From a virus: a stretch of DNA of 26,538 bases. The translations under genes were made by a program, and so were the position numbers. Where the stretch lies: the IMG/VR virus record IMGVR_UViG_3300022925_000148, positions 1 through 26,538 of that record, one strand, 5' to 3'. The stretch's first letter is position 1. Every line of letters begins with the position of its first letter. The notes under the pieces are model-generated. The model saw only the letters and a list, made by a program, of their open reading frames with translations. It was not told the DNA's origin and ran no database searches. Positions 4,792-26,408 of the stretch are shown here, in pieces.

Positions 4792-5310
4792 ATGCAAATG
4801 ACAATTGAACGCCCGCTTGGGTACTACAAGATTTCAGATGATGTTCAAGACCCAGTAGTAGCAACTGCCAGTTCTGCATGTTTTGATTTACATGCATATC
4901 TAAAAGACGGTGTATCCGTTAAATGCTTCTCTTCAATGAATCAGAAGATGGATACACCTGTTATTGCGGGTAAGATTACAATAGAGCCTGGGGCTAGATA
5001 TCTAATCCCAACAGGTTTGATTTTCGATATCCCAAATCAGTGTAGTGTACGCTTACATGCACGGTCTGGGCTATCGTTAAAGCAAGGACTAGTTCTTGCT
5101 AATGCTGAAGGTGTAATTGATGAGGATTATGTTGAACCAGTTTTCGCCATGATTACAAATATTTCAGATGCAAAAGTCACTATTAATAATGGTGACCGCA
5201 TTTGTCAAGCAGAACTTGTGTATCAACCAAACTTTGCAATTATGCCTCTAGTAGATTCGCCAGCGAAAAAAACTGACCGAGATGGTGGTTTTGGTTCAAC
5301 TGGCGTATAA
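4792..5310 (+). CDS. dut: trimeric dUTPase
   Basis: 172 residues from ATG 4792, chosen because it follows the regA stop and has AAAGG at 4775-4779; an in-frame TTG at 4750 lies inside regA and is unlikely. The five dUTPase motifs are present: ASSACFDLH (26-34), RSGLS (91-95), GVIDEDY (107-113, catalytic Asp110), GDRICQAEL (134-142) and the Arg/Gly/Phe-rich C-terminal clasp RDGGFGSTG (163-171). It converts dUTP to dUMP and pyrophosphate, preventing uracil incorporation and feeding dTMP synthesis. It is slightly longer than usual because of an insert near residues 45-56. It ends the early replication operon; the late promoter for Hsp20 overlaps its stop codon. Confidence 0.95.
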   Translation: MQMTIERPLGYYKISDDVQDPVVATASSACFDLHAYLKDGVSVKCFSSMNQKMDTPVIAGKITIEPGARYLIPTGLIFDIPNQCSVRLHARSGLSLKQGLVLANAEGVIDEDYVEPVFAMITNISDAKVTINNGDRICQAELVYQPNFAIMPLVDSPAKKTDRDGGFGSTGV

Positions 5311-5313
5311 ATA
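5306..5313 (+). promoter_or_regulatory. T4-type late promoter for Hsp20
   Basis: Exact TATAAATA, the T4 late -10 consensus, overlapping the dut stop codon. The expected start near 5319 places a hairpin (5318-5345) at the very 5' end of the transcript, 66 nt before the Hsp20 ATG. Confidence 0.7.
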
Positions 5314-7338: not shown

Positions 7339-9820
7339 TGTTCAAGTATCTGGCGATAATTTGCTTGTGCGAGAATATGACAGAGGTGAGCGTAAACAGT
7401 ACCGTCTACCGTACAAACCCACGCTGTTCATTCCTACAAATAAACCAACTAAGTTTAAAACACTAGAAGGCAAGCCTGTTGGTGCAATCCAGCCAGGTGG
7501 CATTCGTGACACTCGTGATTGGGTGAAGCAATATGCAGACGTAGAAGGTTTTGAAATCTACGGGTATCAGAACTACACATATTGCTATATCTCTGATGAA
7601 TATCCAGATGTTGTTGAGTATGACAAATACAACATGGTTATCGCTAACCTTGATATTGAGGTTGGTTCAGAAAACGGGTTCCCAGACCCAGACAAAGCAG
7701 ATGAAGAACTTACTGCAATCACATTCAAAGCAAAAGGCAAGTACTTTGTGTTTGGTTGTCAACCATTCGACAGTAGTGCATATGACCGACTAGAATACGT
7801 CCACTGTGATGATGAGTACGAAATGTGTCGCTTGTTCCTTGATGTATGGGAAGCAGTTGCGCCAGATATCCTCACGGGCTGGAACATTCAATTCTTTGAT
7901 ATCCCCTATCTGTACAATCGTATTTCAAAGGTCATGGGTGAGAAAGATGCAAAACGTCTTTCGCCTTGGAAAATTGTTGGCGAACGCAAAGTCAACATGA
8001 TGGGTCGAACTCTAATCTCTTATGACTTGACTGGTATCTCTGTACTTGATTACATTGAACTGTACAAGAAATTTACATACACCAACCAAGAGAGTTATCG
8101 CCTAGATTACATTTGCCACGTTGAACTTGGTGAACGTAAACTTGATTACTCTGAAGTAGAAACCCTTCATCAGTTGTATAAGACTGACTTTCAAAAGTAC
8201 ATTGAATACAACATTCGTGACGTTGAACTTGTTGATAAACTTGAACAAAAGATGAAGTTGATTGACATGGTTATTGGTCTTGCGTATGACGCTAAGGTTA
8301 ATATCAATGACGTATTCTCACAGGTTCGCATGTGGGATACTCTAATCTTCAACCACTTGCGTAAAGACTATATTGTTCTGCCTGATAAAAAGTCTACTGC
8401 AAAGAATGACAAGTACGCTGGTGCATATGTGAAAGACCCACAAGTTGGTCAGCACAAATGGGTTATGTCTTTTGACTTGAACTCTCTGTATCCTCACTTG
8501 ATTATGCAGTACAATATTTCACCAGAAACGCTGTTGCAAAATGAGCGTATGAACGTGAATGTTGATATGCTTCTCAATCAAGAAATTGACCTGTCTCATT
8601 TGGATGGTAAGACTATCTGTGCAAACGGTGCAATGTTTCGCACTGACAAGCAAGGTTTCTTGCCTGAGATGATGCAGAAGATGTATGATGACCGTAAGCG
8701 ATACAAGAAGATGATGCTTCAGGCGCAAAGTGAACTGCAAGTCGAAAAGAATGCCGACAAGCGTAGAGAACTAGAATACAAGGTATCTACATATAACAAT
8801 ACGCAGATGGCAAAGAAGATTCAGTTGAACTCTGCTTATGGCGCTATCGGTAACCAGTACTTCCGTCACTACGATTTGCGTATGGCTGAAGCGATTACTC
8901 TATCTGGTCAGGTCAGCATTCGTTGGATTGAGAAATATATAAACGAGTACATGAATAAATTGCTCAAAACTGAAGGAGAAGATTATGTCGTTGCGTCCGA
9001 TACAGATTCGGTATATATCCGTTTTAACAAGTTGGTTGATAATGTGTATCCGAATGGAGGAGACACTGATAAAATCGTTGCCTTCTTGGATAAAGTGGCT
9101 ACCACTAAAATTGAACCGTTTATTGATAAGTCTTATCAAACTCTTGCTTCGTATGTAAATGCGTTTGACCAAAAGATGCAGATGGCACGAGAGGCAATTG
9201 CTGATAAGGGCATCTGGACTGCAAAGAAACGATACATTCTAAATGTTTATGATATGGAAGGTGTTCGTTATGCTGAACCTAAGTTAAAAATCATGGGCAT
9301 TGAAGCAGTTAAATCTTCAACACCAAACGTATGTCGTGATAAGATTAAAGAAGCACTGAAGATTATCATGCAAGGTACTGAAACAGAGGTTCAATCTTTT
9401 ATCGGTACATTCAAAGACCAATTCTTCAAGTTGCCGCCCGAAGAGATTTCATTCCCAAGGGGTGTGAACAATCTGGCTAAATATAGAAGTAGCGTAAGTA
9501 TTTTCACTAAGGGTACACCAATGCATGTTCGTGGTACTCTTGTGTATAATCACATGATTAAAAAACAAGGTCTTGATAAGCGTTTTCCAATCGTACAAGA
9601 GGGTGAGAAGATTCGGTTTTTGTATTTGAAAGAACCAAATCCATCAATGCAAAATACTATTGCATTCCCGTCAAGTCTACCAAAAGACTTGAAACTGCAT
9701 GATTACATTGACTATGAGTTGCAATTCTCTAAGTCGTATGTTGAACCATTGCAGGTTATACTTGATGCGATTAACTGGAAAGCAGAGAAACAAGGCGTCT
9801 CATTGGAGGACTTCTGGTAA
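7322..9820 (+). CDS. 43: replicative DNA polymerase gp43 (family B)
   Basis: 832 residues (T4 gp43 898). The 3'-5' exonuclease motifs are Exo I DIE (111-113), Exo II GWNIQFFDIPY (186-196) and Exo III YNIRD (296-300). The polymerase motifs are A DLNSLYP (385-391), B KKIQLNSAYG (498-507) and C SDTDS (559-563) with the catalytic aspartates. The C-terminal SLEDFW fits a sliding-clamp binding peptide for gp45. The gene is intact, with no intron or split between motifs, unlike some T4 relatives. The start MRFYTNVQ matches the beginning of the family, and GAGGG (7308-7312) lies 9 nt before the ATG. Expression is probably from the promoter at 7226. The stop overlaps the next ATG (TAATG). Confidence 0.98.
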   Translation: MRFYTNVQVSGDNLLVREYDRGERKQYRLPYKPTLFIPTNKPTKFKTLEGKPVGAIQPGGIRDTRDWVKQYADVEGFEIYGYQNYTYCYISDEYPDVVEYDKYNMVIANLDIEVGSENGFPDPDKADEELTAITFKAKGKYFVFGCQPFDSSAYDRLEYVHCDDEYEMCRLFLDVWEAVAPDILTGWNIQFFDIPYLYNRISKVMGEKDAKRLSPWKIVGERKVNMMGRTLISYDLTGISVLDYIELYKKFTYTNQESYRLDYICHVELGERKLDYSEVETLHQLYKTDFQKYIEYNIRDVELVDKLEQKMKLIDMVIGLAYDAKVNINDVFSQVRMWDTLIFNHLRKDYIVLPDKKSTAKNDKYAGAYVKDPQVGQHKWVMSFDLNSLYPHLIMQYNISPETLLQNERMNVNVDMLLNQEIDLSHLDGKTICANGAMFRTDKQGFLPEMMQKMYDDRKRYKKMMLQAQSELQVEKNADKRRELEYKVSTYNNTQMAKKIQLNSAYGAIGNQYFRHYDLRMAEAITLSGQVSIRWIEKYINEYMNKLLKTEGEDYVVASDTDSVYIRFNKLVDNVYPNGGDTDKIVAFLDKVATTKIEPFIDKSYQTLASYVNAFDQKMQMAREAIADKGIWTAKKRYILNVYDMEGVRYAEPKLKIMGIEAVKSSTPNVCRDKIKEALKIIMQGTETEVQSFIGTFKDQFFKLPPEEISFPRGVNNLAKYRSSVSIFTKGTPMHVRGTLVYNHMIKKQGLDKRFPIVQEGEKIRFLYLKEPNPSMQNTIAFPSSLPKDLKLHDYIDYELQFSKSYVEPLQVILDAINWKAEKQGVSLEDFW

Positions 9821-10218
9821 TGTCAAACATACCACAGGAATATTTAAATTTAACCGAAGACTTTGGATTCAGCGCAGTTGATGAATCTGAAGTCAATTTA
9901 AAGCAAGCAGACCCAGGTCTATCTGAAGCAGTTGCAGAAGCAGTTGCAGGAAACACTGAGGGTGTCAGTCGATTAGAAAACAAGATTGATATGTTGCTTG
10001 ATGCAATCGCTGGTCAGAGTAAAGAGATTGAAATCCGCAAGGCTGAAGTTGAAGAAGATGTTAAAGAGAAGTTGCTTGAAGTTGAAAAACTGATTATGCC
10101 TCTTCTCGTTAAACTGCTAAAGTCAGCAGACAAAGAATACATTAAGTGGGAGAATCGTGGTCCTGCAATTCAGTCTCAGATTGATAAATTGTTGGCAATC
10201 ACACGGGCAGAGCAATGA
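9820..10218 (+). CDS. hypothetical coiled-coil protein
   Basis: 132 residues. Residues 1-45 are acidic and probably disordered; 48-110 are strongly helical with heptad character (SRLENKIDMLLDAIAG, then an E/K-rich stretch and EVEKLIMPLLVKLLKS). The end is KWENRGPAIQSQIDKLLAIT. Conserved company of gp43 in marine T4-like phages as far as I recall, but I know no function. It is coupled both ways: TAATG overlap with gp43, ATGA overlap with the membrane protein downstream. This suggests a partner for the coiled-coil membrane protein. Confidence 0.75.
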   Translation: MSNIPQEYLNLTEDFGFSAVDESEVNLKQADPGLSEAVAEAVAGNTEGVSRLENKIDMLLDAIAGQSKEIEIRKAEVEEDVKEKLLEVEKLIMPLLVKLLKSADKEYIKWENRGPAIQSQIDKLLAITRAEQ

Positions 10219-11492
10219 CTTATCTAGTGTTCTTTGTTGCACTTGCATTGTCTGCGGTTGCGGCATATTACTCCATCATTGGACTTGTAACTATATTTGC
10301 GGCTTCTGTACTTCCCGTTGCTATCATGGGTTCTACACTTGAAGTTGCAAAGTTGGTTACTGCATCATGGTTGTATCGAAACTGGAAGACTGCAAATGTT
10401 CTACTGAAATCGTATTTTGTTGTTGCAGTAATCGTTCTCATGCTTATTACAAGTATGGGAATTTTTGGTTTTCTCTCTAAGGCACATATTCAACAGACCT
10501 CTGAAGCAGACCAAAACTTGGCAGTCCTTGAGCGAACAGAAGACCAGATGCAACAGATTGAATTCCGTATTATGGAATTGTCAGAAGCAGGTGTTGTAAA
10601 CAATGAGAAACAAAACGACCAAATTGATAACAATAAGAAACAAATTGCAGATATCAATACTCGTTATGCAGAACTAATTGAAGAAGCAAAAGCACAAAAT
10701 CCACTTATCATATTGGATAAGTATATTGCAGATGGAAATACTAAAGCAGTCCAATCGTTGATTGGCGTTAAACCAGATGGTGCATGGGGAAGCAAAACTT
10801 CACAAGCAGTTGATGCATTTCGTGAGAGAAACAAAGACCGAGTTGATGATGTTAGAGCAAGAGTAGAAGAGTTGCGTAATGCACAATTGGCAGAAGTCAA
10901 AGTGCTTACAGATGCGAATGCGAGACTACAGTCCGAGATTGGAACAATCAAAGTTGACTCAACTCAGATTGCTCAGTTTGAAGAACAGTTGACTCAACTC
11001 AGAGAAAAGAAGTTTGAGTTAGAGACAACGTATCGAAAACTGGAAGCAGAATTCGGACCAATAAAATACATCTCCGAAATGATATATGGAGATGATGCTG
11101 AGGCGAACCTAGATGATTCTGTTAGAATTGTTATTTTGATGTTAATATTCGTCTTTGACCCACTGGCAATTTTACTTTTGATTGCCGCAAACCAAGGACT
11201 GAAAGAGAAGCAAAATGATAGACCCAATAGAAGAGTTGAGACAGTTGACACTGAGCAATATGCAGAAATGGGAAGTAGTGTTCCAGACAATGCTGTTCCC
11301 ACAGATGATGCACGAAATAGCAAAGTGGAACAAACTGAAGTACAGTCTGATAAAGTTAGAAAAGTAAAGGTTGCTGATGTTGAGGTGAAATATGAAGCGC
11401 AAACTGGCGAATTCAATTTTGTCGAATATCCAACTGATGTGAGAGATGATAGAAACCACCCCGAACTACGGGCACTCAAGGAGAAAAAATAA
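10215..11492 (+). CDS. membrane coiled-coil protein with a peptidoglycan-binding-like insert
   Basis: 425 residues. Hydrophobic segments at about 3-20, 22-40, 66-88 and 303-325 look transmembrane. Between the third and fourth lies a long Gln/Glu/Lys-rich coiled-coil region (95-285). Inside it, residues 176-204 (AVQSLIGVKPDGAWGSKTSQAVDAF) have the pattern of a PG_binding_1 half-repeat (ADGxxGxxTxxAVxxFQ), also seen in the endolysin. The tail (330-425) is charged and disordered. With a large loop between membrane segments it could span the periplasm and touch the wall. Possible roles are lysis timing, envelope remodelling or superinfection exclusion; none is shown. It overlaps the upstream gene by ATGA and directly abuts the nuclease gene. 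Confidence 0.8.
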   Translation: MTYLVFFVALALSAVAAYYSIIGLVTIFAASVLPVAIMGSTLEVAKLVTASWLYRNWKTANVLLKSYFVVAVIVLMLITSMGIFGFLSKAHIQQTSEADQNLAVLERTEDQMQQIEFRIMELSEAGVVNNEKQNDQIDNNKKQIADINTRYAELIEEAKAQNPLIILDKYIADGNTKAVQSLIGVKPDGAWGSKTSQAVDAFRERNKDRVDDVRARVEELRNAQLAEVKVLTDANARLQSEIGTIKVDSTQIAQFEEQLTQLREKKFELETTYRKLEAEFGPIKYISEMIYGDDAEANLDDSVRIVILMLIFVFDPLAILLLIAANQGLKEKQNDRPNRRVETVDTEQYAEMGSSVPDNAVPTDDARNSKVEQTEVQSDKVRKVKVADVEVKYEAQTGEFNFVEYPTDVRDDRNHPELRALKEKK

Positions 11493-11951
11493 ATGAGCGA
11501 TTACAGTTATGATGTTAAAATTACAAAGATTGTTGATGGTGATACTGTTGACGTTGACATTGACCTTGGTTTCGGGGTGTGGCTCCATAAGGAGCGAGTG
11601 CGAATTATGGGTATCGACACACCTGAAAGTAGAACCTCGGACGAAGTTGAAAAACTTTTTGGAAAAGCCGCAAAACATAGACTTGAGAGTTTACTCCCAA
11701 TTGGTAGTATGCAAGTTCTAATCTGTGAAGCGTATGATGCAAAAGGTAAGTTTGGACGTATCTTGGGTGACTTCAAAGTTGAAGATAAAAATGTCACTGA
11801 GATTATGATTGAAGAAGGACATTGTGTACCGTACTTTGGTGGAAGCAAAGAAGAGATTCAAGCAAAGCACATGATTAATCGTCAAAAACTGTTGCGTGAA
11901 GGTGTAGTATCAAGTGACCAAGTAAATAATGCAATTAGAGAAATGGAGTAA
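11493..11951 (+). CDS. staphylococcal-nuclease-like thermonuclease
   Basis: 152 residues of the SNase fold: VDGDTVDVDID at the metal-binding strand, ERVRIMGIDTPESR, and DAKGKFGRILGDF. The residues matching the S. aureus catalytic set Arg35, Asp40, Glu43 and Arg87 appear as Arg37, Asp42, Glu45 and Arg89, so activity is expected: Ca2+-dependent hydrolysis of DNA or RNA to 3'-phosphate ends. No signal peptide is visible, so it acts inside the cell, perhaps on host nucleic acid. The ATG abuts the upstream stop, and GGAG (11480-11483) is the ribosome binding site. Confidence 0.92.
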   Translation: MSDYSYDVKITKIVDGDTVDVDIDLGFGVWLHKERVRIMGIDTPESRTSDEVEKLFGKAAKHRLESLLPIGSMQVLICEAYDAKGKFGRILGDFKVEDKNVTEIMIEEGHCVPYFGGSKEEIQAKHMINRQKLLREGVVSSDQVNNAIREME

Positions 11952-11955
11952 CATA

Positions 11956-12777
11956 GTGTCTGAAGAAGTAAAAGTAGGTAACGATAACGCAGGCGCTAGT
12001 GCATCCGCAGGTACAGAACAAACCAAAGATAGTGTAAGTGCAGGCGCAGGTGTTGAAGCCCATGCTGGTGTAGACACATCTACCCACAATGCAGTTGGCG
12101 AACAAGAAGCACACGTTGGTGCAGACACACATGCAGACGCAGGTGCATCCGCTGGAGTATCTGGTGGTAATGCTTCGGCATCCGCAAGCGTTGAAGCAGG
12201 TGCAAGTGTAGAAGCAGGCGTATCAAACACTTCAAAAGTTGGTGGAGTAACTTCTACTACAGAAGCACACGCAGGCGCAGAAACCCACGCATATGTTGGC
12301 GCTGAAGCAACAGTCGGTAAAGATGGTGCAGAAGCACATGCAGGTGCAATCGCTGGTGCTAGTGTTGGTGCAGGTGCATCTACTGGTGCTTATGATGATT
12401 CAGGCAATGGCGCACAAGCAGGAGCAGGTGTTAGCGTTGGCGCACAAGTAGGCGTTGAAGCAGGCGGCGGCGCTACTATGGATGATGGTGTTGCTACAGT
12501 TGGTATTGACGGTAAACTAGCACTTGGTGTTGGTGTAGACGTTGATGCAAGCGTAAGCGTAGATACAAAGCCCGCACAGGAGTTTGTTGTTGATACAGGA
12601 AACACTGTTGCAAAAACAGTTACCAAAGACGCAAACACAGTAGCAAAAGAAACTACTAAAGTGGTTGACAAAGGTGTTGATGTTGTCAAAGACACAGGCA
12701 AAGCAGTAGGTAACGCAGGCAAAAAAGCAGGAGATACTATCTCAAAGCCATTTAAGAAAATTAAGAAACCTTGGTAA
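11956..12777 (+). CDS. Ala/Gly-rich repeat protein with LEA-like tail
   Basis: 273 residues from GTG 11956, chosen because GGAG (11946-11949) precedes it and it follows the nuclease stop; an ATG at 11929 lies inside the nuclease gene. Residues 10-205 are built from degenerate short repeats of Ala, Gly, Ser, Val, Glu and His (AGASAGV, EAHAGAETHA, GAGASTGA). Residues 215-273 change to Thr/Val/Lys-rich 11-residue-like amphipathic repeats (TVAKTVTKDANTVAKETTKV, VVKDTGKAVG) ending in basic FKKIKKPW. This resembles LEA-type or glycine-zipper-like sequences, but no family is recognised. It is the last gene before the uvsX promoter. Confidence 0.75.
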   Translation: MSEEVKVGNDNAGASASAGTEQTKDSVSAGAGVEAHAGVDTSTHNAVGEQEAHVGADTHADAGASAGVSGGNASASASVEAGASVEAGVSNTSKVGGVTSTTEAHAGAETHAYVGAEATVGKDGAEAHAGAIAGASVGAGASTGAYDDSGNGAQAGAGVSVGAQVGVEAGGGATMDDGVATVGIDGKLALGVGVDVDASVSVDTKPAQEFVVDTGNTVAKTVTKDANTVAKETTKVVDKGVDVVKDTGKAVGNAGKKAGDTISKPFKKIKKPW

Positions 12778-12784
12778 AAAGTCC

Positions 12785-12813
12785 TTGACAAAGTGGTTAT
12801 TATCTGATAGAAT
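12785..12813 (+). promoter_or_regulatory. sigma70-type promoter for uvsX
   Basis: TTGACA (12785-12790), 17-nt spacer, TAGAAT (12808-12813), 32 nt before the uvsX ATG. AGTCC directly before the -35 box is shared with the promoter at 17403. Confidence 0.85.
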
Positions 12814-12845
12814 GTATTATATTCTCAACAATGAATGGAGTTAGA

Positions 12846-13958
12846 ATGAGCGATTTTCTTAACGGTCTTAGTAAGACGATTGGCAACGAATACGCAGGTG
12901 TCGTTGAAGATGGTATTGTAGCAGGAGATGTAGATGGATATATTGATACTGGCAGTTATGTGCTTAATGCTCTTGTATCAGGAAGTTTGTTCGGTGGGAT
13001 TCCCAACAACAAAATTACTGCTTTCGCAGGTGAGAGTGCAACTGGTAAAACTTTCTTTATTCTAGGAGCAGTCCAGAAATTCTTAAAAGATAATCCTACT
13101 GGTGGGGTCATCTACTTTGAATCTGAGAGTGCATTGACTAAGAATATGATTTCAGAACGTGGCATTGATACTAAACGTATTGCTATTGTTCCTGTGGCAA
13201 CGATTGAAGAGTTTGGTACACAATGTGTCAAACTACTAGATAAATACCTAGAACAAAAAGAAAGTGAACGTCAACCTATCTGTCTAGTACTAGATAGTCT
13301 TGGTATGCTTTCGACAGTCAAAGAAATGACTGACACTGAGAGTGGTAGTGACAAGCGAGATATGACACGGGCACCAAAGATTCGTGGTATCTTCCGTACA
13401 CTGACACTTAAACTTGGTCGTGCAAAAGTGCCTATGTTGATTACCAATCACACATATGATGTTATTGGTTCATACATTCCAATGAAGGCAATGTCTGGCG
13501 GCTCTGGTCTAAAGTATGCCGCATCAAACATCTTGTTCTTGTCAAAGAAGAAAGAAAAAGATGGTACTGAAATTGTCGGTAACATTATTAAAGTCGTGAA
13601 CCACAAATCACGTTTGACCAAAGAAAACAAGATGGTTGAAGTACTCGTTACTTACGATAAAGGTTTGTCACGATACTACGGTCTACTTGAACTTGCAGAA
13701 GAATCTGGCATCTTTAAGAAAGTATCTACACGCTATGAACTACCTGATGGTTCAAAGCAATTCGGTAAAGCAATCAACTCTGCACCAGAGAAGTACTTTA
13801 CTGATGATATTCTACAACAACTTGAAAAGTTTGTTATTAAGAATTTCATGTACGGTAAACCTTCAGAAGAAGAACTTGAAGAAGAGTATCAAGAATTGCA
13901 GGCGCAATTTGACGAAGAAGAATTAACACTTGTGGAGAATGATGATGAGAACGTATGA
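12846..13958 (+). CDS. uvsX: UvsX RecA-like recombinase
   Basis: 370 residues from ATG 12846, preferred over ATG 12831 because GGAG (12837-12840) sits 5 nt before it. Walker A GESATGKT (62-69), Walker B ICLVLD (145-150), and the DNA-binding loop region [15 protein letters not shown] typical of RecA/UvsX. It forms filaments on single-stranded DNA for strand exchange, recombination-dependent replication and repair. The acidic C-terminus ([19 protein letters not shown]) resembles that of T4 UvsX, which binds partner proteins. Its end overlaps the next small gene, and gp41 follows, as in T4-like phages. Confidence 0.97.
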
Positions 13959-16556: not shown

Positions 16557-16564
16557 TATAAATA
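16557..16564 (+). promoter_or_regulatory. T4-type late promoter before the candidate RNA
   Basis: Exact TATAAATA, 5 nt after the upstream stop codon. No protein gene follows for 400 nt; initiation near 16570 would give a transcript of about 225 nt up to the terminator at 16772-16794. Confidence 0.6.
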
Positions 16565-17939: not shown

Positions 17940-18353
17940 TTGATACAACCCAAAATTCTGAAGTACCTAGAAAAACATGCAGTATCAACTTTGGGTACAG
18001 GTGGTCGCTTTAAACTTGCCGCAGGGGTTGTCCGTAGAGGCAAGTTGCTTGCTGTAGGTGTAAACTCATATAAGACACATCCAATCATGTTGAACAGTGG
18101 CTACCGTGATGGTCAACATTGTCTACATGCAGAAGCAGACGCAATTAAAAAGTGCATTCGTATGGGCTATGCTGATATCTTGTCGAATTGTGAATTGTAT
18201 GTTGTTCGTGTGAAGCATCCTGATAAATTCTCTGATGAGTATGTTCACGGGCTTGCAAAGCCTTGTAGTGGGTGTAATAATATTATTAATGAGTATAATT
18301 TTAAAGCAGTTTATTATACGACTGATGAACATGGCAGGTTAGAAGTCTTATAA
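17940..18353 (+). CDS. cytidine/dCMP deaminase family protein
   Basis: 137 residues with the zinc-dependent deaminase motifs HAE (63-65, catalytic Glu65, in LHAEADAI) and PCSGC (108-112, zinc ligands Cys109 and Cys112). The family includes dCMP deaminase (T4 gene cd), which makes dUMP for thymidylate synthesis, and this fits with the dUTPase at 4792. Other CDA-fold targets such as RNA or free cytidine are not excluded; the protein is shorter than T4 Cd (193 residues) and lacks an obvious allosteric insert. The start is TTG 17940, with AGAGGA (17921-17926) 13 nt away, so the start is not certain. A late promoter motif overlaps the last codons. Confidence 0.85.
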   Translation: MIQPKILKYLEKHAVSTLGTGGRFKLAAGVVRRGKLLAVGVNSYKTHPIMLNSGYRDGQHCLHAEADAIKKCIRMGYADILSNCELYVVRVKHPDKFSDEYVHGLAKPCSGCNNIINEYNFKAVYYTTDEHGRLEVL

Positions 18354-18356
18354 ATA
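18349..18356 (+). promoter_or_regulatory. T4-type late promoter for the virion/internal protein cluster
   Basis: Exact TATAAATA overlapping the deaminase stop. Initiation near 18362 gives a leader of about 41 nt to the ATG at 18403. No further promoter motif was seen up to the end of the window. Confidence 0.7.
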
Positions 18357-18402: not shown

Positions 18403-19371
18403 ATGGCATCTAAAACCATCAGTCAATTCTTAAAAGAAGCAAAAGAATCATTCAACGTACCTGACAGTCTTGACGTTCTCAAAGCAGAATGTGCAAAGAT
18501 TGGTTATGAAGATTTTAAAGCAATCAGCGGTTCTCGCTTTTCGATTCTCACCAACGAGAATCGTGTTGCCCTCCTAGAAAAACTAGCATCCCATCTAGCA
18601 CAATTCGGTGCATTCTACGACCCTGACTTTGGTTCATCCTCAGTCGGTATGGTTCGTATTGGGAAATTCGCAATTGGTGCCGCTCCAAAGTCTAAGCAAG
18701 GTAAAGCAAGTGCAGGCGTAGAGAATGAGTACATCCTCATTCAGATGATTAATGATGCACTATCAAACGGTCCTTTGAATCTTGTCTTCAGTGCAGGTTC
18801 AAGCAAATTTACAGTCCCTCAAGCAGTCCGTGCTGAAGCAGTCGGTGGCGATACAAAAGACCGTAAGAAGTCTGATGTAAACGTATTTGATGCTGATGGT
18901 AATGTTTACCCGTTGTCGCTCAAAAAAGACAAAGCAGAAATGTGGGAGTCTGCTGATTCTTATTGGGGCGATACAATGAAGAAGATTGTAGAGCGTGAAC
19001 AGAAGAAGGGTACAGTCAAAGTTGAACCACATCCTTCAGTTCGCTCAGTGTTTACAATCACACCAAACTTGGCAGTCAAAGCAGATGCCAAAGAAGTCAA
19101 GAATGTCGTATTTGGTACAGACATTCTCCCTAATGGTTGTGTGCTAGAAAAAACATACAACGGAAAATATACCATTGACGCTGATACTGAATCTGTTATA
19201 ATTGACGTAACAAAGATTATTACAAGTCCCAGAGAGTTAAAGGGTGAATATGAAGTGTATTTCTTAATTCGCAATGACAGTTCACGCAAGGGTTCTAAAG
19301 TACCTGGACTGCGTGTTCTTGCTGTTAAGAAATCACGAATCAATCGTAATGTAGAGGTCGTAAGTCGATGA
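18403..19371 (+). CDS. conserved phage protein with capsid-targeting-like N-terminus
   Basis: 322 residues, no known domain recognised. The N-terminus MASKTISQFLKEAKES resembles the T4 capsid-targeting peptide MKTYQEFIAEA, with a potential prohead-protease site L10-K11-E12|A13. Later segments (GAAPKSKQGKASAGVENEYILIQMIND, 93-119 in two parts; KKSDVNVFDADGNVYPLSLKKD) suggest an alpha/beta domain: ENE followed by DVNVF and SLKK is loosely like a restriction-nuclease-fold core (E...D...xxK), though I cannot confirm this. GGAG (18391-18394) is the ribosome binding site. First gene behind the late promoter; its TGA overlaps the next ATG. Confidence 0.75.
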   Translation: MASKTISQFLKEAKESFNVPDSLDVLKAECAKIGYEDFKAISGSRFSILTNENRVALLEKLASHLAQFGAFYDPDFGSSSVGMVRIGKFAIGAAPKSKQGKASAGVENEYILIQMINDALSNGPLNLVFSAGSSKFTVPQAVRAEAVGGDTKDRKKSDVNVFDADGNVYPLSLKKDKAEMWESADSYWGDTMKKIVEREQKKGTVKVEPHPSVRSVFTITPNLAVKADAKEVKNVVFGTDILPNGCVLEKTYNGKYTIDADTESVIIDVTKIITSPRELKGEYEVYFLIRNDSSRKGSKVPGLRVLAVKKSRINRNVEVVSR

Positions 19372-20627
19372 AAAGTTTCTCACAATTCCAACAATTAGAT
19401 GAAGCGGCTGAAGGTAAGAACCTTCACTTGGAGCATCTTGAAGATGAACTATTTAACAACGGTATCGTTGGCGGTCGTGCGGCTGTCAACTTTTTGCGTT
19501 CATTGCGTGATATGCTTCAAGGTGATGCGGCGTCTTCAGTAAACATCACAGTCAAGTGGGATGGCGCACCTGCTGTCTTCTTTGGTACAGACCCAGAAGA
19601 TGGTAAGTTCTTTGTTGCCAAAAAAGGCATCTTCAACAAAAACCCAAAGACATATAAGTCACATGCTGACATTGATGCAGACACTTCAGGTGACCTTGCA
19701 GTTAAACTAAAATCGGCATTTGACAATCTTCAGAAATTGAATCTAGGTAAGTCTGTGTATCAAGGTGACTTGATGTATACTAAAAAGGATTTGAAATCTG
19801 AGACAATCAATGGCGAGAAACTAATCACGTTTCAACCAAACACCATTGTGTATGCTGTCCCTGAGAACTCAGACTTGGCAAAACAGATTAAGAATGCCGA
19901 GATTGGTATCATTATTCACACCGAGTACAAAGGTGGTCCAACACTACAGGACATGAGTGCATCATTCAACATTGATGTATCTGGTCTTGGTCAATCAAAA
20001 GATGTATGGTATCAAGATGCGTCTTACAGAGATGTATCAGGTTCTGGTACACTAACGAAAAAAGAGACAACAGAATTGGATGTTGTGCTTTCAAAAATGG
20101 GCAAAGCATTCCGAGGAATCAACTCAAAAGAATTTGCAGAACTTCTTAAAATGCAAGAGCAACTATCTGGTAGTATTGCTGGTGCTAGTGTTAAGACATT
20201 TATTAACTCTAAAATCCGTGACCAGAAGAATGTTGACCCTAAATCTGCAAGTACTGAATATACTAAATATATTGAAAACTATTTTAATGAGAAGCAAATT
20301 GCCAAAGTGAAGACGGACAAAGCAAAGACACAAAAAGCGCAGTTGCGTGATGAATATGTCAGGTTATTGCAAAAATATCAAAAGACTTTGAGTGCAGTTT
20401 TTGACTTCTATTCATTGATTGTTGAAGCCAAACTTTTGGTTGTTCGAAAACTTGAAAGTGTTAAACAGTTGACTAAAACTTTCAATCGAACTGATAATGG
20501 TTTTGAAGTAACAGAACCAGAGGGTTTCGTAGCAGTCGATAAAATCGGTGGGAGCGCAGTTAAGTTAGTTGATAGGCTGACATTTTCCTATAACAACTTT
20601 ACTGCCGCCAAAAATTGGTCTAAGTGA
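19368..20627 (+). CDS. KxDG nucleotidyltransferase/ligase-like protein with capsid-targeting-like tag
   Basis: 419 residues. N-terminus MKSFSQFQQLDEAAEG matches the T4 internal-protein tag with potential cleavage L10-D11-E12|A13. Residues 61-72 (TVKWDGAPAVFF) contain KWDG (63-66), the motif I of covalent nucleotidyltransferases (ATP ligases, RNA ligases, capping enzymes) with Lys63 as the would-be AMP/GMP acceptor. Further matches by position are YQGDLMY (like motif III) and IGIIIHTEYKGG (like motif IV). I recall relatives in marine phages listed under a DUF name (DUF6267), not as proven ligases. The C-terminal half (285-400) is basic and helical. Substrate is unknown; a nucleic-acid end-sealing or repair enzyme is the simplest idea. 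Confidence 0.72.
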   Translation: MKSFSQFQQLDEAAEGKNLHLEHLEDELFNNGIVGGRAAVNFLRSLRDMLQGDAASSVNITVKWDGAPAVFFGTDPEDGKFFVAKKGIFNKNPKTYKSHADIDADTSGDLAVKLKSAFDNLQKLNLGKSVYQGDLMYTKKDLKSETINGEKLITFQPNTIVYAVPENSDLAKQIKNAEIGIIIHTEYKGGPTLQDMSASFNIDVSGLGQSKDVWYQDASYRDVSGSGTLTKKETTELDVVLSKMGKAFRGINSKEFAELLKMQEQLSGSIAGASVKTFINSKIRDQKNVDPKSASTEYTKYIENYFNEKQIAKVKTDKAKTQKAQLRDEYVRLLQKYQKTLSAVFDFYSLIVEAKLLVVRKLESVKQLTKTFNRTDNGFEVTEPEGFVAVDKIGGSAVKLVDRLTFSYNNFTAAKNWSK

Positions 20628-20650
20628 ACATCAATAAAGGATAACGGATA

Positions 20651-23404
20651 ATGAAAAAATTTAAACAACTAAAAGAAGCAGACGAAAAAAAGGTTGTGTT
20701 CACGTTTGGTAGATTCAATCCACCAACTACAGGACATGAGAAGTTGCTTAAAGCGGCTGACGATATTGCTCGGGCGCAGGGTGCTGACTTGATGGTATTT
20801 CCATCACAGTCCGAGGACCCAAAAAAGAATCCGTTGTCTTTTACTGATAAAGTAAAATTCATGCGTAAGATATTTCGTGCTTACGCTAAAGGCATTAGTG
20901 GTGATAAATCAGTCAAAACATCTTTTGACGCAATCACCAAACTCTATGACATGGGCTACACAAACATTACTATGGTTGTTGGTGGTGACAGAGTTGCAGA
21001 GTTTGATACATTACTAAACAAATATAATGGTGTAAAAGGTCGCCATGGATTCTATGAATTCGAAAATGGTGTACAGATTAAATCCGCAGGCAATCGTGCA
21101 GACCCAGATTCTGATGAAGCAAAACAGATGACTGCCGATTCAATGTCTGCATCTGTTCTACGCAAACTTGCGGCAGATGGTCACTTTGATGATTGGGTAG
21201 ACGAAAAAGGAAAGAAACAAAAAGGTTTCGTTGCGGGTGTACCTGACACAATAGGTGTCACTGATAAGCGTGTACTCTTCAATAAAATTCGTACTGGATT
21301 GAAACTTGCCGCAATCAACGAAATGTTTGAATTACTATTTGACGAAATGCTATTGAGTGAATCGGGTGAACAAATCTCAGAAAAAGCGCCACCAGATGAT
21401 AAGATTCTGAAGTGGACTGAAGACCCTAAAGTTAAAGCATCATTCAAAGACAAGTACGGCGACAAGTGGGCAGAAGTCATGTACGCTACTGCTTGGAAGA
21501 TGTACAACAGCAAAACAAAAGAACAAAATGAAGCATGGAACATTGATGAAGAGTTAGATGAAGATTGGGCTCCAGCAAACATCAATGAACTATTTGCAGA
21601 AGAATTCAAAGACTACACTAAGAAGTCATTTGATATGTTGCGTGAACGTGTAAAACTTACTGAAGAAGGTGAGATTACACAAGCACATCTAAACGCTATT
21701 GAGAAGTATGCAGACAAGTTGTTTGCAAAAGTTGGTATTGACGTAAACTTTACACGACATTTCTTGGACCGTGTGAATGATGCCCGTAACAAAACTCAAA
21801 TTACTAATGCTGAACTAGTTCGTCTGTTCAAGCAGACATACGCACAGTATGGTAAGAAGATTGCTCAACTAGGTCCAGACGCAGAAGCAGTACTTAACGA
21901 TATTAAGACTGATGTAAACATGCCATTCGTACTGAAGTGGGATGATAAGAATCAAGAACTAGACATGGTTGCGAAGACAGTCATGCGTAAGAAGAACTTT
22001 GCAACTTCAAGCACAAAACTACAAGTGCAAGAGTTTGACCCACTAGAAGAAAAGACTGATGATGGTAAAGAGCATTCATGGAAGTCTGAAGGACATTACA
22101 CTGCTGACGGACAAGAGTGGACAGGTCCTCAACACTACAATGATGAAATGCAAATGGTGATGACAGGTTCTGAACCATCTGCTGATAGTGTTCCCTTGTA
22201 CCACTACAAAGAATTACCAAAAGAAATTCGTGCTAAGATTGATGCGGGTTTGAAGACTGAGAAGAAGAAGTTGAAAAATGTTCGTGAAGCATACATTGCA
22301 GAAGTAACATCAAACGACTTGCCACAAATCGGTGATGTTGATGGTGATGGCATTGACGATGACCCATATCAGGATGTTCAAGTACGTTTTGTACCATATG
22401 CAGTGAAGATTAAAGGCTTCCCAGAATTCTTCTTGTGGTCTACAAGCATTTCTAAAGTACGTTCTTCAATTCGTTTGACACTCAAGCGTATGGATGATAT
22501 TGAATCCATTGAGCGTGTTACTGATGCAGAAGTGCGTTCTATTCACAGAAACCGTGCTTACAATCCATCTGAACTTAGAACAAAAGACGATAACCTAAAA
22601 ATACGTCAGGATGCATACTATAGAGAATCTCTCGAATATGGTACTGATGAACTTGTTAAGTCTTACAAGAAAGCAACCCCAGGTGAACTTGAAGAAGCAC
22701 CACAGTGGGTTAAGCAATTTATTTCTCAACTACCTGGTCAAAAAGATAAGTACCAAAAAGCGGCGCAAGCACTAATCAAACTACAACAAGATGAAGACCC
22801 CAAAGGTCGTCATGGTCTTGAATATTGGGCTAGTGAAATGATGCGTTGGACAAGTGGTTCACTTGATGCAAGAACATTAGCAAAGTTTGCGAGAAAGATT
22901 CTTGCTACCGAATCTGTATTTTACGCAGTAGAAAATAATCAACCCCTACACAGTATCTATCGCCCACATTCTGAGATGTACTATGAACTCTTTGATGTTG
23001 CAAGAGAACTAAATGTCGTCTCTGAGGGGTTGGATAAATACTTACTAGAGAGTACTGATATTGGTGAATTTGCTCGTTACGATGGTGAGTACGTCCCTCT
23101 TGATATTCCTCTTGTAGAAGAGTGGATTGATGAAGAGGTCGAACTCAACTCACCGAAGCGTGGTGGTTCTAAGAAGTTCTATGTGTACGTTAAGAATGAT
23201 AAAGGTAATGTCGTAAAAGTTTCATTTGGTGATACTTCTGGTCTGAAAGCAAAGATTGATGACCCAGAAGCAAGAGCATCATTTGTAGCAAGACATGATT
23301 GTGATAACAAGAATGATAAAACAACTCCAGGTTACTGGTCATGCAGACTACCGATGTATGCGAAAGAACTTGGATTAAGTGGGGGTGGGGATTTCTTTTG
23401 GTAA
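20651..23404 (+). CDS. 917-aa multidomain protein: NMNAT-like nucleotidyltransferase plus virion-associated modules
   Basis: N-terminal tag MKKFKQLKEAD with possible site L7-K8-E9|A10. Residues 15-215 are a HxGH-type nucleotidyltransferase: FGRFNPPTTGH (19-29) and SASVLR (166-171, the family's (S/T)xxR motif), as in nicotinamide-mononucleotide adenylyltransferases and cytidylyltransferases. Residues 245-290 hold DPKVKASFKDKYGDKW and EVMYATAWKMYN; residues 363-460 hold FTRHFLDRVNDARN and LDMVAKTVMRKKNF, both patterns recurring in marine phage proteins. A calcium-loop-like DVDGDGIDDD lies at 562-571. The C-terminal 80 residues (KKFYVYVKNDKGNVVKVSFG, RHDCDN, YWSCRL) resemble DUF5872. Possible internal protease sites are IAE|V (551/552) and LEE|A (682/683), between modules. 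AAGGA (20638-20642) precedes the ATG. Confidence 0.78.
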   Translation: MKKFKQLKEADEKKVVFTFGRFNPPTTGHEKLLKAADDIARAQGADLMVFPSQSEDPKKNPLSFTDKVKFMRKIFRAYAKGISGDKSVKTSFDAITKLYDMGYTNITMVVGGDRVAEFDTLLNKYNGVKGRHGFYEFENGVQIKSAGNRADPDSDEAKQMTADSMSASVLRKLAADGHFDDWVDEKGKKQKGFVAGVPDTIGVTDKRVLFNKIRTGLKLAAINEMFELLFDEMLLSESGEQISEKAPPDDKILKWTEDPKVKASFKDKYGDKWAEVMYATAWKMYNSKTKEQNEAWNIDEELDEDWAPANINELFAEEFKDYTKKSFDMLRERVKLTEEGEITQAHLNAIEKYADKLFAKVGIDVNFTRHFLDRVNDARNKTQITNAELVRLFKQTYAQYGKKIAQLGPDAEAVLNDIKTDVNMPFVLKWDDKNQELDMVAKTVMRKKNFATSSTKLQVQEFDPLEEKTDDGKEHSWKSEGHYTADGQEWTGPQHYNDEMQMVMTGSEPSADSVPLYHYKELPKEIRAKIDAGLKTEKKKLKNVREAYIAEVTSNDLPQIGDVDGDGIDDDPYQDVQVRFVPYAVKIKGFPEFFLWSTSISKVRSSIRLTLKRMDDIESIERVTDAEVRSIHRNRAYNPSELRTKDDNLKIRQDAYYRESLEYGTDELVKSYKKATPGELEEAPQWVKQFISQLPGQKDKYQKAAQALIKLQQDEDPKGRHGLEYWASEMMRWTSGSLDARTLAKFARKILATESVFYAVENNQPLHSIYRPHSEMYYELFDVARELNVVSEGLDKYLLESTDIGEFARYDGEYVPLDIPLVEEWIDEEVELNSPKRGGSKKFYVYVKNDKGNVVKVSFGDTSGLKAKIDDPEARASFVARHDCDNKNDKTTPGYWSCRLPMYAKELGLSGGGDFFW

Positions 23405-23652
23405 ATCCATACATAGAAGACAAAGATATTCGAATTTTCTCTTGCCAAACTGAACAAAGTGAGTTAGTATGGCATAGAGACAAGAAAGATAGAACTGTCG
23501 TGATACTTGAGGGTGAGGGTTGGATGTTCCAGCGAGATAATGAACTTCCAATGATTCTCTCAGAAGGCGATGAGATTGAGATTTCATCCTTTGAGTATCA
23601 TAGAATCATCAAAGGTAAGACAGATTTAAAGATTAAAATTAAGGAGCAATAA
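23398..23652 (+). CDS. small cupin-like conserved phage protein
   Basis: 84 residues from TTG 23398, chosen because GGGGGTGGGG (23381-23390) lies 7 nt upstream and homologues I recall begin (M)VNPYIEDKDIRIFS; the frame opens further upstream, but inside the 917-residue gene. The sequence fits a short cupin barrel: LVWHRDKKDRTVVILEGEGW, LPMILSEGDEIEI, FEYHRIIKG and LKIKIKE. Histidines in WHRD and EYHR could bind a metal, as in cupins. Function is unknown; the fold is found in sugar isomerases, dioxygenases and structural proteins. It overlaps the preceding gene by 7 nt and is followed 2 nt later by the next gene. Confidence 0.75.
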   Translation: MVNPYIEDKDIRIFSCQTEQSELVWHRDKKDRTVVILEGEGWMFQRDNELPMILSEGDEIEISSFEYHRIIKGKTDLKIKIKEQ

Positions 23653-23654
23653 CA

Positions 23655-24689
23655 ATGTTTAACGACAAACTAACAAAAGTACTTTCAGGTATCGCTAAAG
23701 ATATTATGGAAGGAAAAACAAAAGCAGAAGCATTTGAAACATGTGCTGACTGCAAAACAGAAAGCAAGTGCATGGCTGAAGGCAAATGCATGGGTGAAGC
23801 ATCCGAAGAAGTAGTCAAAGAAGGTACATGGCATCTGCCAGATACTCCAAAATTGATGGCTGACTTTAAGAAGTTGATGAGCAAGCCAATCAAGTTGGGT
23901 CGTAATGGCGATGATGCTATTGAGGCACTTGGTGCTGTTGTTGGGGATGATGAGTTGTTTGATGACTTGTATGTTGCAGGTAAAAAGAATGCAACGGGTG
24001 ATGCTCGTGATGTTGTTAAGAAGCACATGAAGCGTTTGGGCATCAAAGAAGAAGTTGAACTTGATGAAGAGAAACTTGCTGGTTGGATTGCAATGTTCAA
24101 TGGCAAGCAAGTAGAAATCTACAAAGATAAAGATGCTAAAGACTTGTATAGTGCGAAACTCTTTGCTATCAAGGCATTGAATGTTCCTAAGTCTAAGCAA
24201 GGTCTACTATCAGTTGAACCAGCATACGAAGAAGTTATTAAAGAAGCAGACTTGTCTGAAGCAGTTGATGCAAAGAAAGTTGTCGCACATTTAGTCAAGA
24301 AGGGTAGCAACCCTAAAGACGCAGAAGCAATGGTCAAGAAAGAATTTGACGGTGCAATCAAAGCATACCCAAATGCGCCTGTTGCTAAAATCGCAGATTA
24401 CATTATGACTGTTGCAGAAGCAAAAGATGGCGGCTATACCGTCAAGCACAAAACATTCTCTTCTGCAATTCAACATGCAGTAGAAGTTGCTATGAAGCGT
24501 GGCTACGAAGTAGACGCAGACGATTATGACCGCAAGGTTGCAATGGGTCCTAAGAAGCCTAGCGAAGGTAAAACAAATTCATATTCACTCAAGTTGATGA
24601 AAGATGGGAAAGAGCAACGTAAAGCATTGCAAGTCCAAATCGCAAACTTGGACAACAAGTTCTATGAACTTAACATGTACATTCAATAA
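23655..24689 (+). CDS. conserved multidomain phage protein with internal L/I-x-E|A sites
   Basis: 344 residues. It starts MFNDKLTKVLSGIAKDIMEGKT, followed by a four-cysteine cluster (Cys30, 33, 39, 45) that might bind a metal. A second module (about 60-130) contains DDELFDDLYVAGKKN; a third (140-180) WIAMFNGKQVEIYKDKDAK. Acidic linkers contain IKE|A (197/198), LSE|A (202/203) and VAE|A (255/256), matching the T4 gp21 cleavage pattern. The C-terminal domain (257-344), with AMKRGYEVDADDYD, GPKKPSEGKTNSY and the end LDNKFYELNMYIQ, is one I recall repeated across marine T4-like phage virion-type proteins. AAGGAG (23641-23646) precedes the ATG. Probably processed or virion-associated; biochemical role unknown. 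Confidence 0.7.
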   Translation: MFNDKLTKVLSGIAKDIMEGKTKAEAFETCADCKTESKCMAEGKCMGEASEEVVKEGTWHLPDTPKLMADFKKLMSKPIKLGRNGDDAIEALGAVVGDDELFDDLYVAGKKNATGDARDVVKKHMKRLGIKEEVELDEEKLAGWIAMFNGKQVEIYKDKDAKDLYSAKLFAIKALNVPKSKQGLLSVEPAYEEVIKEADLSEAVDAKKVVAHLVKKGSNPKDAEAMVKKEFDGAIKAYPNAPVAKIADYIMTVAEAKDGGYTVKHKTFSSAIQHAVEVAMKRGYEVDADDYDRKVAMGPKKPSEGKTNSYSLKLMKDGKEQRKALQVQIANLDNKFYELNMYIQ

Positions 24690-24700
24690 GGAAACCCATC

Positions 24701-25132
24701 ATGGCAAACGATACCACAGCAAAACAACTAAATGCAGTTGCACAAGCATACAGAGACATGATGAATAAACAACCAGACGCTGTTGTTGTTGAAACTTCTA
24801 CTCCTACTCCTGCAGCCGCACCTGTGTCTTCTGTCAAATCAACATTGAGTAAAATCAATCAAGTTGCACAAGCATACAGAGACATGCAAGTAAAACCTAT
24901 TATTACAGAAGCAAAGTTTGCAATTCCTGAAGAGATTGCAAAAGAAGATGCATCTGACTTTACTGTTGCCGCTTCTGCCGCTAAAAAAGCAGGCAAGAAG
25001 AAATTCACATTCGGCGGAAAAGAATATCCAGTTACAATTAAAACGGATATCAAAACAGAGTCCGAAGAAGAAAAAACAGTCAAGAAGGGTAATGTAACAA
25101 TTGACCCAGAAGAAAAAGATTCAGAATATTAA
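24701..25132 (+). CDS. small phage protein with repeated VAQAYRDM segment
   Basis: 143 residues. Two copies of a helical segment, LNAVAQAYRDM (10-20) and INQVAQAYRDM (52-62), flank a Thr/Pro/Ala linker. The matching DNA is an exact 25-bp duplication. After the second copy comes IITE|A (68-71), a prohead-protease-like site, then a basic domain AASAAKKAGKKKFTFGGKEYPVTIK (88-112 in total) of a type I recall from marine phage structural proteins, and a charged tail. I infer a leader (1-70) that may be removed from a 73-residue mature part. AAGGAAA (24688-24694) precedes the ATG. Confidence 0.68.
   Translation: MANDTTAKQLNAVAQAYRDMMNKQPDAVVVETSTPTPAAAPVSSVKSTLSKINQVAQAYRDMQVKPIITEAKFAIPEEIAKEDASDFTVAASAAKKAGKKKFTFGGKEYPVTIKTDIKTESEEEKTVKKGNVTIDPEEKDSEY
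24736..24760 (+). repeat. 25-bp direct repeat, copy 1
   Basis: Identical to 24862-24886; encodes VAQAYRDM in both copies. Identity at synonymous positions suggests a recent duplication. Confidence 0.85.
24862..24886 (+). repeat. 25-bp direct repeat, copy 2
   Basis: Identical to 24736-24760, 126 bp apart (42 codons), in the same frame of the same gene. Confidence 0.85.
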
Positions 25133-25143
25133 GGAATTACAAA

Positions 25144-25695
25144 GTGAAAACGCTCAAGGACATACTCAGTGAAGCGAAAGCGGCTGACTTAAATCTGCCG
25201 CAAATCTACTGCGACATGGATATGGTCCTTGTCGATTTTATCGGTGGTGCAAACAAAGCACTTGAAGATGCTGGTTTCGACCAAGCGTTCAATGCTAAAG
25301 GGCAACATAACGAAAAAGATAAAAAGTGGGACATTCTTAAAGGAGTAGACAAATTTTGGTTCAATCTCAAACCTATGTCGGATGGACTCGCCCTGTGGAG
25401 ATTTATCGGAAAGTACAGCCCGTACATTCTATCTACACCAAGCAAGAGGATGCCTACAAGCAAGCCAGAGAAAAAGCAATGGGTTGCAAAAAATCTGATG
25501 ACAAAACCAAAGGGGATTCTACTAGTTCCTCGGGAAGACAAACAAAAGTGGGCAGTAACGAATGGTATGCCTAACATTCTTATTGATGACTATATAAAGA
25601 ACATCAATGAATGGGAAGCAAAAGGTGGCATAGGCATTCACCATACGTCTACAACTAAGACTATTTCTAAACTAAAAGAGTTGGGGTTTAAGTAA
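25144..25695 (+). CDS. HAD-family 5'-nucleotidase with capsid-targeting-like tag
   Basis: 183 residues from GTG 25144, with AAGGAA (25132-25137) upstream. N-terminus MKTLKDILSEAKAAD mirrors T4 MKTYQEFIAEA, including the first three residues and Glu10|Ala11. After it comes a HAD phosphatase: motif I CDMDMVLVDF (nucleophile and acid aspartates), motif II Ser/Thr in YILSTPS, motif III Lys in PREDKQKWA, and motif IV LIDDYIKNINEWEAKGGIGIHH. This order fits 5'(3')-deoxyribonucleotidases, which dephosphorylate nucleoside monophosphates. Tag and enzyme together suggest a packaged enzyme. The stop overlaps the next ATG (TAATG). Confidence 0.85.
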   Translation: MKTLKDILSEAKAADLNLPQIYCDMDMVLVDFIGGANKALEDAGFDQAFNAKGQHNEKDKKWDILKGVDKFWFNLKPMSDGLALWRFIGKYSPYILSTPSKRMPTSKPEKKQWVAKNLMTKPKGILLVPREDKQKWAVTNGMPNILIDDYIKNINEWEAKGGIGIHHTSTTKTISKLKELGFK

Positions 25696-26408
25696 TGGGA
25701 CGATATCTAAATGACGAAAGAATGCATATTGCTCTAGGCAGTCATCCTAAAGTTTCGCATATTCATAAGTTTGGTGCAAGAATTGGAATTGACACTACAT
25801 CCAAAACTATTTGGGATGGTGCTGATGGCATCTATCCTTGGAGCGTATTTGATACACCTAAAGTACTGACTGTTGTTGGTGCTAGTGATACAGGTAAATC
25901 TATTACCGTATCTGGACTTGATGCAAATTACGATAGGGTTGATGAAACTATTGCAGTAGGTGCTACTGGTTCTGTAGAATTCAAGCGTGTATATCGTGCA
26001 GTTGTCGAAACGACAACTAATGCTGGTTTAATCACTGTAACTGCTAGTGGTACAACTGTAATGGGGATTCAACCTGGAAATGCACAAACTCTAATGTGCG
26101 TTTATACAATACCTCGTAACTACACTGGACTCGTCCTAAAGGGTGCCGCTTCTGCCTCCGCAGACAAGGATATGATTATCGAATTCTTTGGTCGTACCCT
26201 AGATGATGAAGGAAACTATAAACCATTTAGGATTCAGCACATTGCTAATATATATCAAAACAACTATGTATATGAATTTGCAATTCCTCTAGCACTGCCA
26301 GAGAAGACTGATTTGGATGTTCGTGTGGTTGGTTATTCACCCGATGCGGGTGCGAAGGTAACTGCCGCATTTGATATTGTATTATACGAAATGGACACAG
26401 ACTATTAA
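25695..26408 (+). CDS. putative virion structural protein
   Basis: 237 residues, beta-rich with many Gly, Thr, Ser and Val (TVVGASDTGKSITVSGLD, VETTTNAGLITVTASGTTVM), typical of phage structural beta domains. The last third (MIIEFFGRTLDDEGNYKPFRI, split here: FFGRTLDDEG and KPFRIQHIANIYQN; LPEKTDLDVRVVGYSPDAG) looks like a conserved receptor- or capsid-decoration-type fold. I recall similar proteins in marine T4-like phages listed only as structural. TAATG overlap with the nucleotidase gene places it in the late cluster. No tag is present at its N-terminus (MGRYLNDERMH), so it is probably not an internal protein. Confidence 0.65.
   Translation: MGRYLNDERMHIALGSHPKVSHIHKFGARIGIDTTSKTIWDGADGIYPWSVFDTPKVLTVVGASDTGKSITVSGLDANYDRVDETIAVGATGSVEFKRVYRAVVETTTNAGLITVTASGTTVMGIQPGNAQTLMCVYTIPRNYTGLVLKGAASASADKDMIIEFFGRTLDDEGNYKPFRIQHIANIYQNNYVYEFAIPLALPEKTDLDVRVVGYSPDAGAKVTAAFDIVLYEMDTDY

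Follow-up and report, generated by a model that had tools for sequence, protein, structure and literature searches.

A phage gene cluster with T4-like capsid-targeting tags as a candidate set of packaged and injected enzymes

Could a phage load a set of enzymes into its head and deliver them into the next host together with its DNA? This question is raised by a run of seven genes at positions 18403-25695 of DNA from a marine T4-like phage (the window; 26,538 nucleotides, the entire IMG/VR virus record IMGVR_UViG_3300022925_000148), four of which encode proteins with N-termini, below called tags, that resemble the capsid-targeting peptides of the phage T4 internal proteins. We favor the interpretation, with a probability of roughly 75%, that the cluster encodes T4-type internal (packaged) proteins with an enzyme cargo, which would be loaded into the prohead, trimmed, injected and active early in the infection. 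The main features are as follows, with a slash marking the putative cut:

18349-18356, plus strand: T4-type late promoter element TATAAATA, exact match
18403-19371, plus strand: F1, tagged protein of 322 amino acids; PHROG 12709, no Pfam match, no significant PDB fold match
18403-18438, plus strand: F1 tag, MASKTISQFLKE/A; targeting part retained in relatives, Gln or Asn before the cut (P1) in several
19368-20627, plus strand: F2, DUF6267 protein with a KxDG motif, 419 amino acids; Pfam PF19782, 346 bits
19368-19403, plus strand: F2 tag, MKSFSQFQQLDE/A, with an ipI-like spacer; Glu retained in relatives, many in the exact T4 register
20651-23404, plus strand: F3, NMNAT/cytidylyltransferase-like protein with long extensions, 917 amino acids; PF01467, PHROGs 395 and 3041, motif GRFNPPTTGH
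20651-20677, plus strand: F3 tag, MKKFKQLKE/A; [LI]xE/A with variable x in 19/20 distinct leaders
25144-25695, plus strand: F7, HAD-type 5'(3')-deoxyribonucleotidase, 183 amino acids; PHROG 2643, E 2.5e-21
25144-25173, plus strand: F7 tag, MKTLKDILSE/A, exact T4 register; similar leaders in close relatives

A previous reading based on the sequence only had placed tagged N-termini at 18403, 19368, 20651 and 25144, and all four are present at exactly these coordinates. The letters of the first, ASKTISQFLKE/A, had been read correctly apart from the omitted initiator Met (M-ASKTISQFLKE/A). In the T4 record, ipII and ipIII start with MKTYQEFIAE/A, ipI with MKTFKEF-TSTTTPVST-ITE/A, and gp23 contains FLTE/A; the cut positions in the internal proteins and in gp23 are established (PMC9026906). 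The tags in the window have hydrophobic residues at about positions 4, 7 and 8 and are closed in 4/4 proteins by the gp21-type (L/I)-x-E/A. The Glu10/Ala11 claimed for the tag at 25144 is borne out, and the start codon of this gene is a GTG preceded by a ribosome-binding site. Relative to the T4 register, the F1 tag has two extra residues after Met, the F2 tag contains the ipI-like spacer, and the F3 tag is one residue shorter, lacking Phe7. In the F1 and F7 proteins, the tag site is the sole [LI]xE[AGS] in the whole chain.

Tagged genes make up 4/7 of the run, and no other gene in the window has such a start. The pattern [LIM]xE/A in residues 2-15 was found in 4/33 window genes, all inside this one 7-gene run, with P = 0.011 for the count relative to the window's own internal rate and P = 8.6e-4 for the clustering; when N-termini were shuffled, four matches were reached in 1/20,000 trials. 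A more relaxed pattern was rejected because it was too permissive and matched internal starts. The odds from the window alone are unusual but modest, and the comparative evidence is stronger.

The order DNA polymerase, RecA, helicase and tagged cluster is the same in the Methylophilales phage Melnitz (Kyanoviridae), and in the Pelagibacter phage HTVC008M RecA, helicase and cluster follow the order in the window. The same cluster is also present in a 69-kb IMG/VR relative, the RecA and helicase of which are 90% and 81% identical to those in the window. The sequence-only reading would have been undermined by loss of the tag in close homologues, and we find the tag kept in relatives of F1, F2, F3 and F7. 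The F1 and F7 tags persist in loci fetched with search seeds lying outside the tag. In the conserved F3 leaders, x is any of at least eight different residues, and 80 cyanophage orthologues of F3 all share L8, E10 and A11 but have any of S, T, N, A and I at residue 9, the conservation being used for positions 9-11 only since one seed covered tag residues 1-8. Synonymous codon changes occur at L8, E10 and A11 in the same 80 orthologues. Among F2 relatives, Glu is mostly retained and the next residue (P1') is variable, and many are in the exact T4 register (MLKFTQYLEE, MLNFSGYLTE, MHSFKQYITE). The site is likewise mostly conserved in close relatives of F7 (MKKIKDFLLE, MKTVADFLKE, MKTVKDFLRE).

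The tag is also found on unrelated proteins. Melnitz gene 15 and HTVC008M gp126 occupy the position of F1 and have no similarity to it, and these start with MQGFKTFLSE/A and MLSFTGYSNLSE/A, respectively. Conversely, homologues of F7 in the unrelated phages Atu_ph07, phiXF1 and OLIVR1 have no leader, their first residues already belonging to the catalytic domain, and in KVP40 the F1 homologue is untagged. That one tag occurs on dissimilar proteins, and that similar proteins occur without it, is the pattern expected of a targeting sequence; as judged from these comparisons, the tag is a conserved add-on.

Two side observations concern tag-like starts in relatives. For Melnitz gene 16 (13272-13281), the annotated ATG gives MLTLINFSKYITE, while a TTG at 13281, favored by relatives and by a ribosome-binding site, gives MINFSKYITE in the exact T4 register. 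The domain at residues 339-457 of F3 (window 21665-22021) is also found by itself in Melnitz and other phages, as a small separate protein that starts with MKTFLQF or MKTFNQYLLSE.

The proposal that a T4-type late promoter leads the cluster holds well: TATAAATA lies upstream of F1 and is found 47-55 bp 5' of the F1 start in 18/18 close-relative loci (some being near-identical contigs), as well as upstream of Melnitz gene 15. The conserved promoter points to late expression of the cluster. Further plus-strand matches lie at 5306-5313 and 16557-16564, one of them 72 bp 5' of an Hsp20-like gene at 5385; three matches in the window are within what chance can give.

The prohead protease gp21, to which the trimming had been ascribed, was not found in the 26.5-kb window record and was therefore sought in relatives. 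It is present in Melnitz and in the 69-kb relative; the latter encodes head and tail proteins of the T4 type, gp17-gp23 among them. The gp23 of the 69-kb relative has a single [LI]xE[AGS] site, LFE/A at residue 52; the corresponding sites are LSE/A in Melnitz and LTE/A in S-CREM2 and S-SZBM1. A tag-like open reading frame, MKTFRELKASLVSE/S, lies between the portal and gp21 genes in the prohead-core gene block of the 69-kb relative.

Independent evidence for packaging comes from published cyanophage virion proteomes. The F3-type nucleotidyltransferase was detected in preparations of purified virions as S-CREM2 ORF154, S-SZBM1_140 and S-SCSM1 ORF91, and a putative cytidylyltransferase is listed for S-SM1 virions (PMC10665884, PMC9146016, PMC9602691, PMC3037559). 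The first three of these are tagged, with MKNFSSFLTE/A in S-CREM2 gp154, MRFRQFIIE/A in S-SZBM1_140 and MKSFLQFLKE/A in S-SCSM1_91. We also scanned whole genomes with a pattern built from T4 positions 4, 7, 8 and 10. Since the first S-CREM2 N-termini were already known when this pattern was drawn up, S-CREM2 is not a blind case, and S-SZBM1 and S-SCSM1 are cleaner. In S-CREM2, 6/219 proteins match, and 5/6 are virion proteins: the S-adenosylmethionine (SAM) hydrolase gp6, gp13, the kinase gp14, gp136 and the cytidylyltransferase gp154 (P = 3e-3 overall; P = 1.7e-4 among non-structural proteins).

Other tagged proteins in these phages are recorded here as side observations. In cluster C cyanophages, virion-detected kinase and Cas9-like proteins are tagged too (S-CREM2 gp12-gp15, 7704-13331), with MKRFDAFLTE or, about 20 residues in, LRFASFMAE/A. 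Tags are also seen in the S-CRM01 kinase (MISFDQFLSE), S-CRM01 g127 (MKLFNQFFKE/A) and an S-H34 Cas9-like protein (AGFSSFLKE/A). S-SZBM1 gp191 and gp192 (24311-25125, minus strand) and S-SCSM1_30 (34215-34535) have the tags MKSFKSFLSE, MKTFKQYITE/A and MKTFKQFMSE, and S-SCSM1_93 (31627-31836), a virion protein of 69 amino acids, ends with a tag-like RTFKEFLEYIE.

What could the cargo do? The NMNAT-like reading of the 20651 protein stands, with PF01467 at 23.3 bits (cut-off 21) and the TxGH-type motif GRFNPPTTGH; by its sequence, F3 is an NMNAT/cytidylyltransferase-type nucleotidyltransferase, the two types being indistinguishable at this level. The HAD nucleotidase reading of the 25144 protein is likewise upheld by PHROG 2643 (E 2.5e-21) and the DxD motif in YCDMDMVLVDF, which identify F7 as a deoxynucleotidase; there was no Pfam match at E <= 0.001. 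F2 had been described as a KxDG nucleotidyltransferase. The motif K63-x-D65-G66 (KWDG) is indeed invariant among relatives, as are the PEG and KLVDR motifs, and the assignment is one at the motif level for a protein of the DUF6267 family: DNA and RNA ligases were among the top PDB matches in a fold search, the best ligase at E 0.25 and none significant. A ligase-type function of F2 is thus a motif-level suggestion. F2 matches one part of PHROG 455 and F3 the other part, suggesting a joint function. PDB sequence searches with F1, F2, F3 and F7 gave nothing useful, and AlphaFold models of F1 and F2 (mean pLDDT 79 and 72) had no significant match among PDB folds, so we claim no enzyme mechanism for F1 and a motif-level one for F2.

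Several observations weigh against the favored interpretation. The virion detections concern F3 orthologues in other phages, that is, one of the four tagged proteins, and the proteome authors were unable to exclude co-purification or contamination. The DUF6267 protein is untagged in S-SZBM1, Syn9 and S-CRM01, and the one adjoining S-SZBM1_140 is absent from the S-SZBM1 virion list, leaving the virion placement of F2 without independent support. Genome-wide, S-SZBM1 and S-SCSM1 showed no enrichment of tags among listed virion proteins (0/4 annotated genes and 1/3), and the pooled association reaches P = 0.017 only; with enrichment in S-CREM2 only, we do not claim the association as general. The small, conserved tagged proteins encoded close to the terminase genes (S-SZBM1 gp191 and gp192, S-SCSM1_30) are not in either virion list, and together with the lack of enrichment this leaves the sufficiency of the tag unproven. 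Finally, the F3 homologue in HTVC008M lacks the Glu, and P1 is Gln or Asn in several F1 relatives, in which the targeting half is held.

The strongest alternative is that the tagged proteins are packaged without being injected or active in the host, serving instead as prohead-core or assembly helpers, as is partly the case for T4 IPIII, mutants of which assemble heads more slowly (PMC9026906). The tag-like open reading frame between the portal and gp21 genes would fit such a role, but catalytic motifs unneeded for assembly alone are conserved in F2, F3 and F7, and the cargo in the same position differs among phages, both of which make this alternative rather improbable. It is less probable still that the tags are chance matches or N-terminal helices of a generic kind and that cytoplasmic enzymes co-purified with the virions: the modest odds from the window alone (P = 0.011), a match of the tag pattern to RecA and the contamination raised by the proteome authors themselves would fit, but the deep conservation with only residue x free, the modularity of the tag and the tag-virion association in S-CREM2, with a kinase and a SAM hydrolase among its members, speak against it.

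We therefore retain the interpretation of T4-type internal proteins with enzyme cargo. The capsid-targeting role proposed earlier is well supported by the register, conservation, cargo modularity, late promoter, the gp21 and gp23 site of the close relative and, for F3, the mass-spectrometric detection of tagged orthologues in virions. Packaging is well supported for F3, and we infer it for F1, F2 and F7. The proposed cut after L-x-E fares less evenly: trimming is likely for F3 and F7, and doubtful for F1 outside the source phage because of the Gln or Asn at the cut position in several relatives. It is probable that the particle carries these enzymes and that they pass into the host along with its DNA, an injection step suggested by analogy with the T4 internal proteins and Alt (PMC9026906, PMC12373910). 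The proposed action ahead of all phage gene expression would likewise follow from the T4 analogy.

One hypothesis for the sequence of events is that each enzyme is brought to the prohead core by its tag late in infection, that gp21 cleaves after L-x-E to release the enzyme inside the head, and that the DNA is packed around the freed enzymes. The F3 nucleotidyltransferase, the ligase-like DUF6267 protein, the deoxynucleotidase and F1 would then accompany the DNA into the next host, where their targets at the start of infection would be nucleotides, nucleic acids or NAD-linked defenses; early restoring or diverting of nucleotides or NAD is a reasonable guess. The hypothesis predicts the post-Glu N-termini AAESGASVQAK for the S-SCSM1 NMNAT and AVAAAAK for S-SZBM1_140, with EAAESGASVQAK and QFIIEAVAAAAK as the uncut alternatives.

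The remaining genes in and around the cluster are:

23398-23652, plus strand: F4, small untagged cluster protein; start in relatives is TTG (MVNPY...)
23655-24689, plus strand: F5, charged protein, possible weaker fifth tag candidate; IME/G at residues 17-20
24701-25132, plus strand: F6, untagged cluster protein; no family match (PHROG, Pfam)
25695-26408, plus strand: F8, downstream gene, probable virion protein, untagged; 36% identical to S-CREM2 gp176

The F5 candidate had been overlooked previously; the protein has 3 [LI]xE[AGS] sites versus 0.75 expected, and IMEG or ILEG near residue 20 recurs in some relatives. The F8 relative S-CREM2 gp176 was detected in virions. Elsewhere in the window (11929-12777), a low-complexity Ala/Gly/Val-rich protein of 282 amino acids is encoded between a nuclease-like gene and recA.

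Proteomics of cyanophage virions has repeatedly detected nucleotidyltransferases and kinases, as well as a SAM hydrolase, with cargo and contamination undistinguished. A readable packaging tag would help to separate the two and, from sequence, to predict the injected repertoire of abundant ocean phages; it also draws attention to enzymes with a possible role during the first minutes of an infection. More tentatively, and at somewhat less than even odds, T4-type capsid-targeting peptides could serve marine Kyanoviridae and their relatives as a general packaging code, loading whole enzyme sets as a first-strike toolkit for delivery before phage genes are expressed. If so, the cargo sets would include a nucleotidyltransferase, ligase-like protein, nucleotidase, kinase, SAM hydrolase and even a Cas9-like protein. 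In a limited search of the open literature we did not find a link between the tag and the nucleotidyltransferase, or a conserved tagged multi-enzyme operon in marine phages, and we do not claim priority.

Both the T4 targeting system and the cyanophage virion nucleotidyltransferases are already known. As in the T4 internal proteins, the tags have hydrophobic residues at positions 4, 7 and 8, Glu at 10 and Ala at P1', and the ipI-like spacer variant, the late expression suggested by the promoter and the gp21 in a close relative add to the resemblance. In contrast to the small anti-restriction proteins of T4, the cargo here is an enzyme-like set (183-917 amino acids) in one conserved operon, and packaging, cutting and injection are predicted for the source phage. 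T4 Alt is also an enzyme carried in the head with an N-terminus trimmed by gp21, as we suggest for the window proteins, but Alt is an ADP-ribosyltransferase, whereas the cluster has none and thus a different chemistry, with a tag more like that of the internal proteins. F3 is orthologous to the NMNAT/cytidylyltransferase-like virion proteins of S-CREM2, S-SZBM1, S-SCSM1 and S-SM1, and syntenic with those in S-SZBM1 and S-SCSM1; the proteome papers, in the parts available, proposed delivery without a packaging mechanism, for which the tag is the explanation proposed here. Head-packaged effectors and polyvalent proteins (PMC9503650) are likewise enzymes, some of them NAD-linked, for which packing into heads and injection have been proposed, but they were recognized by fusion to head proteins or by gene neighborhood, whereas the enzymes described here are recognized by a putative cleavable targeting peptide.

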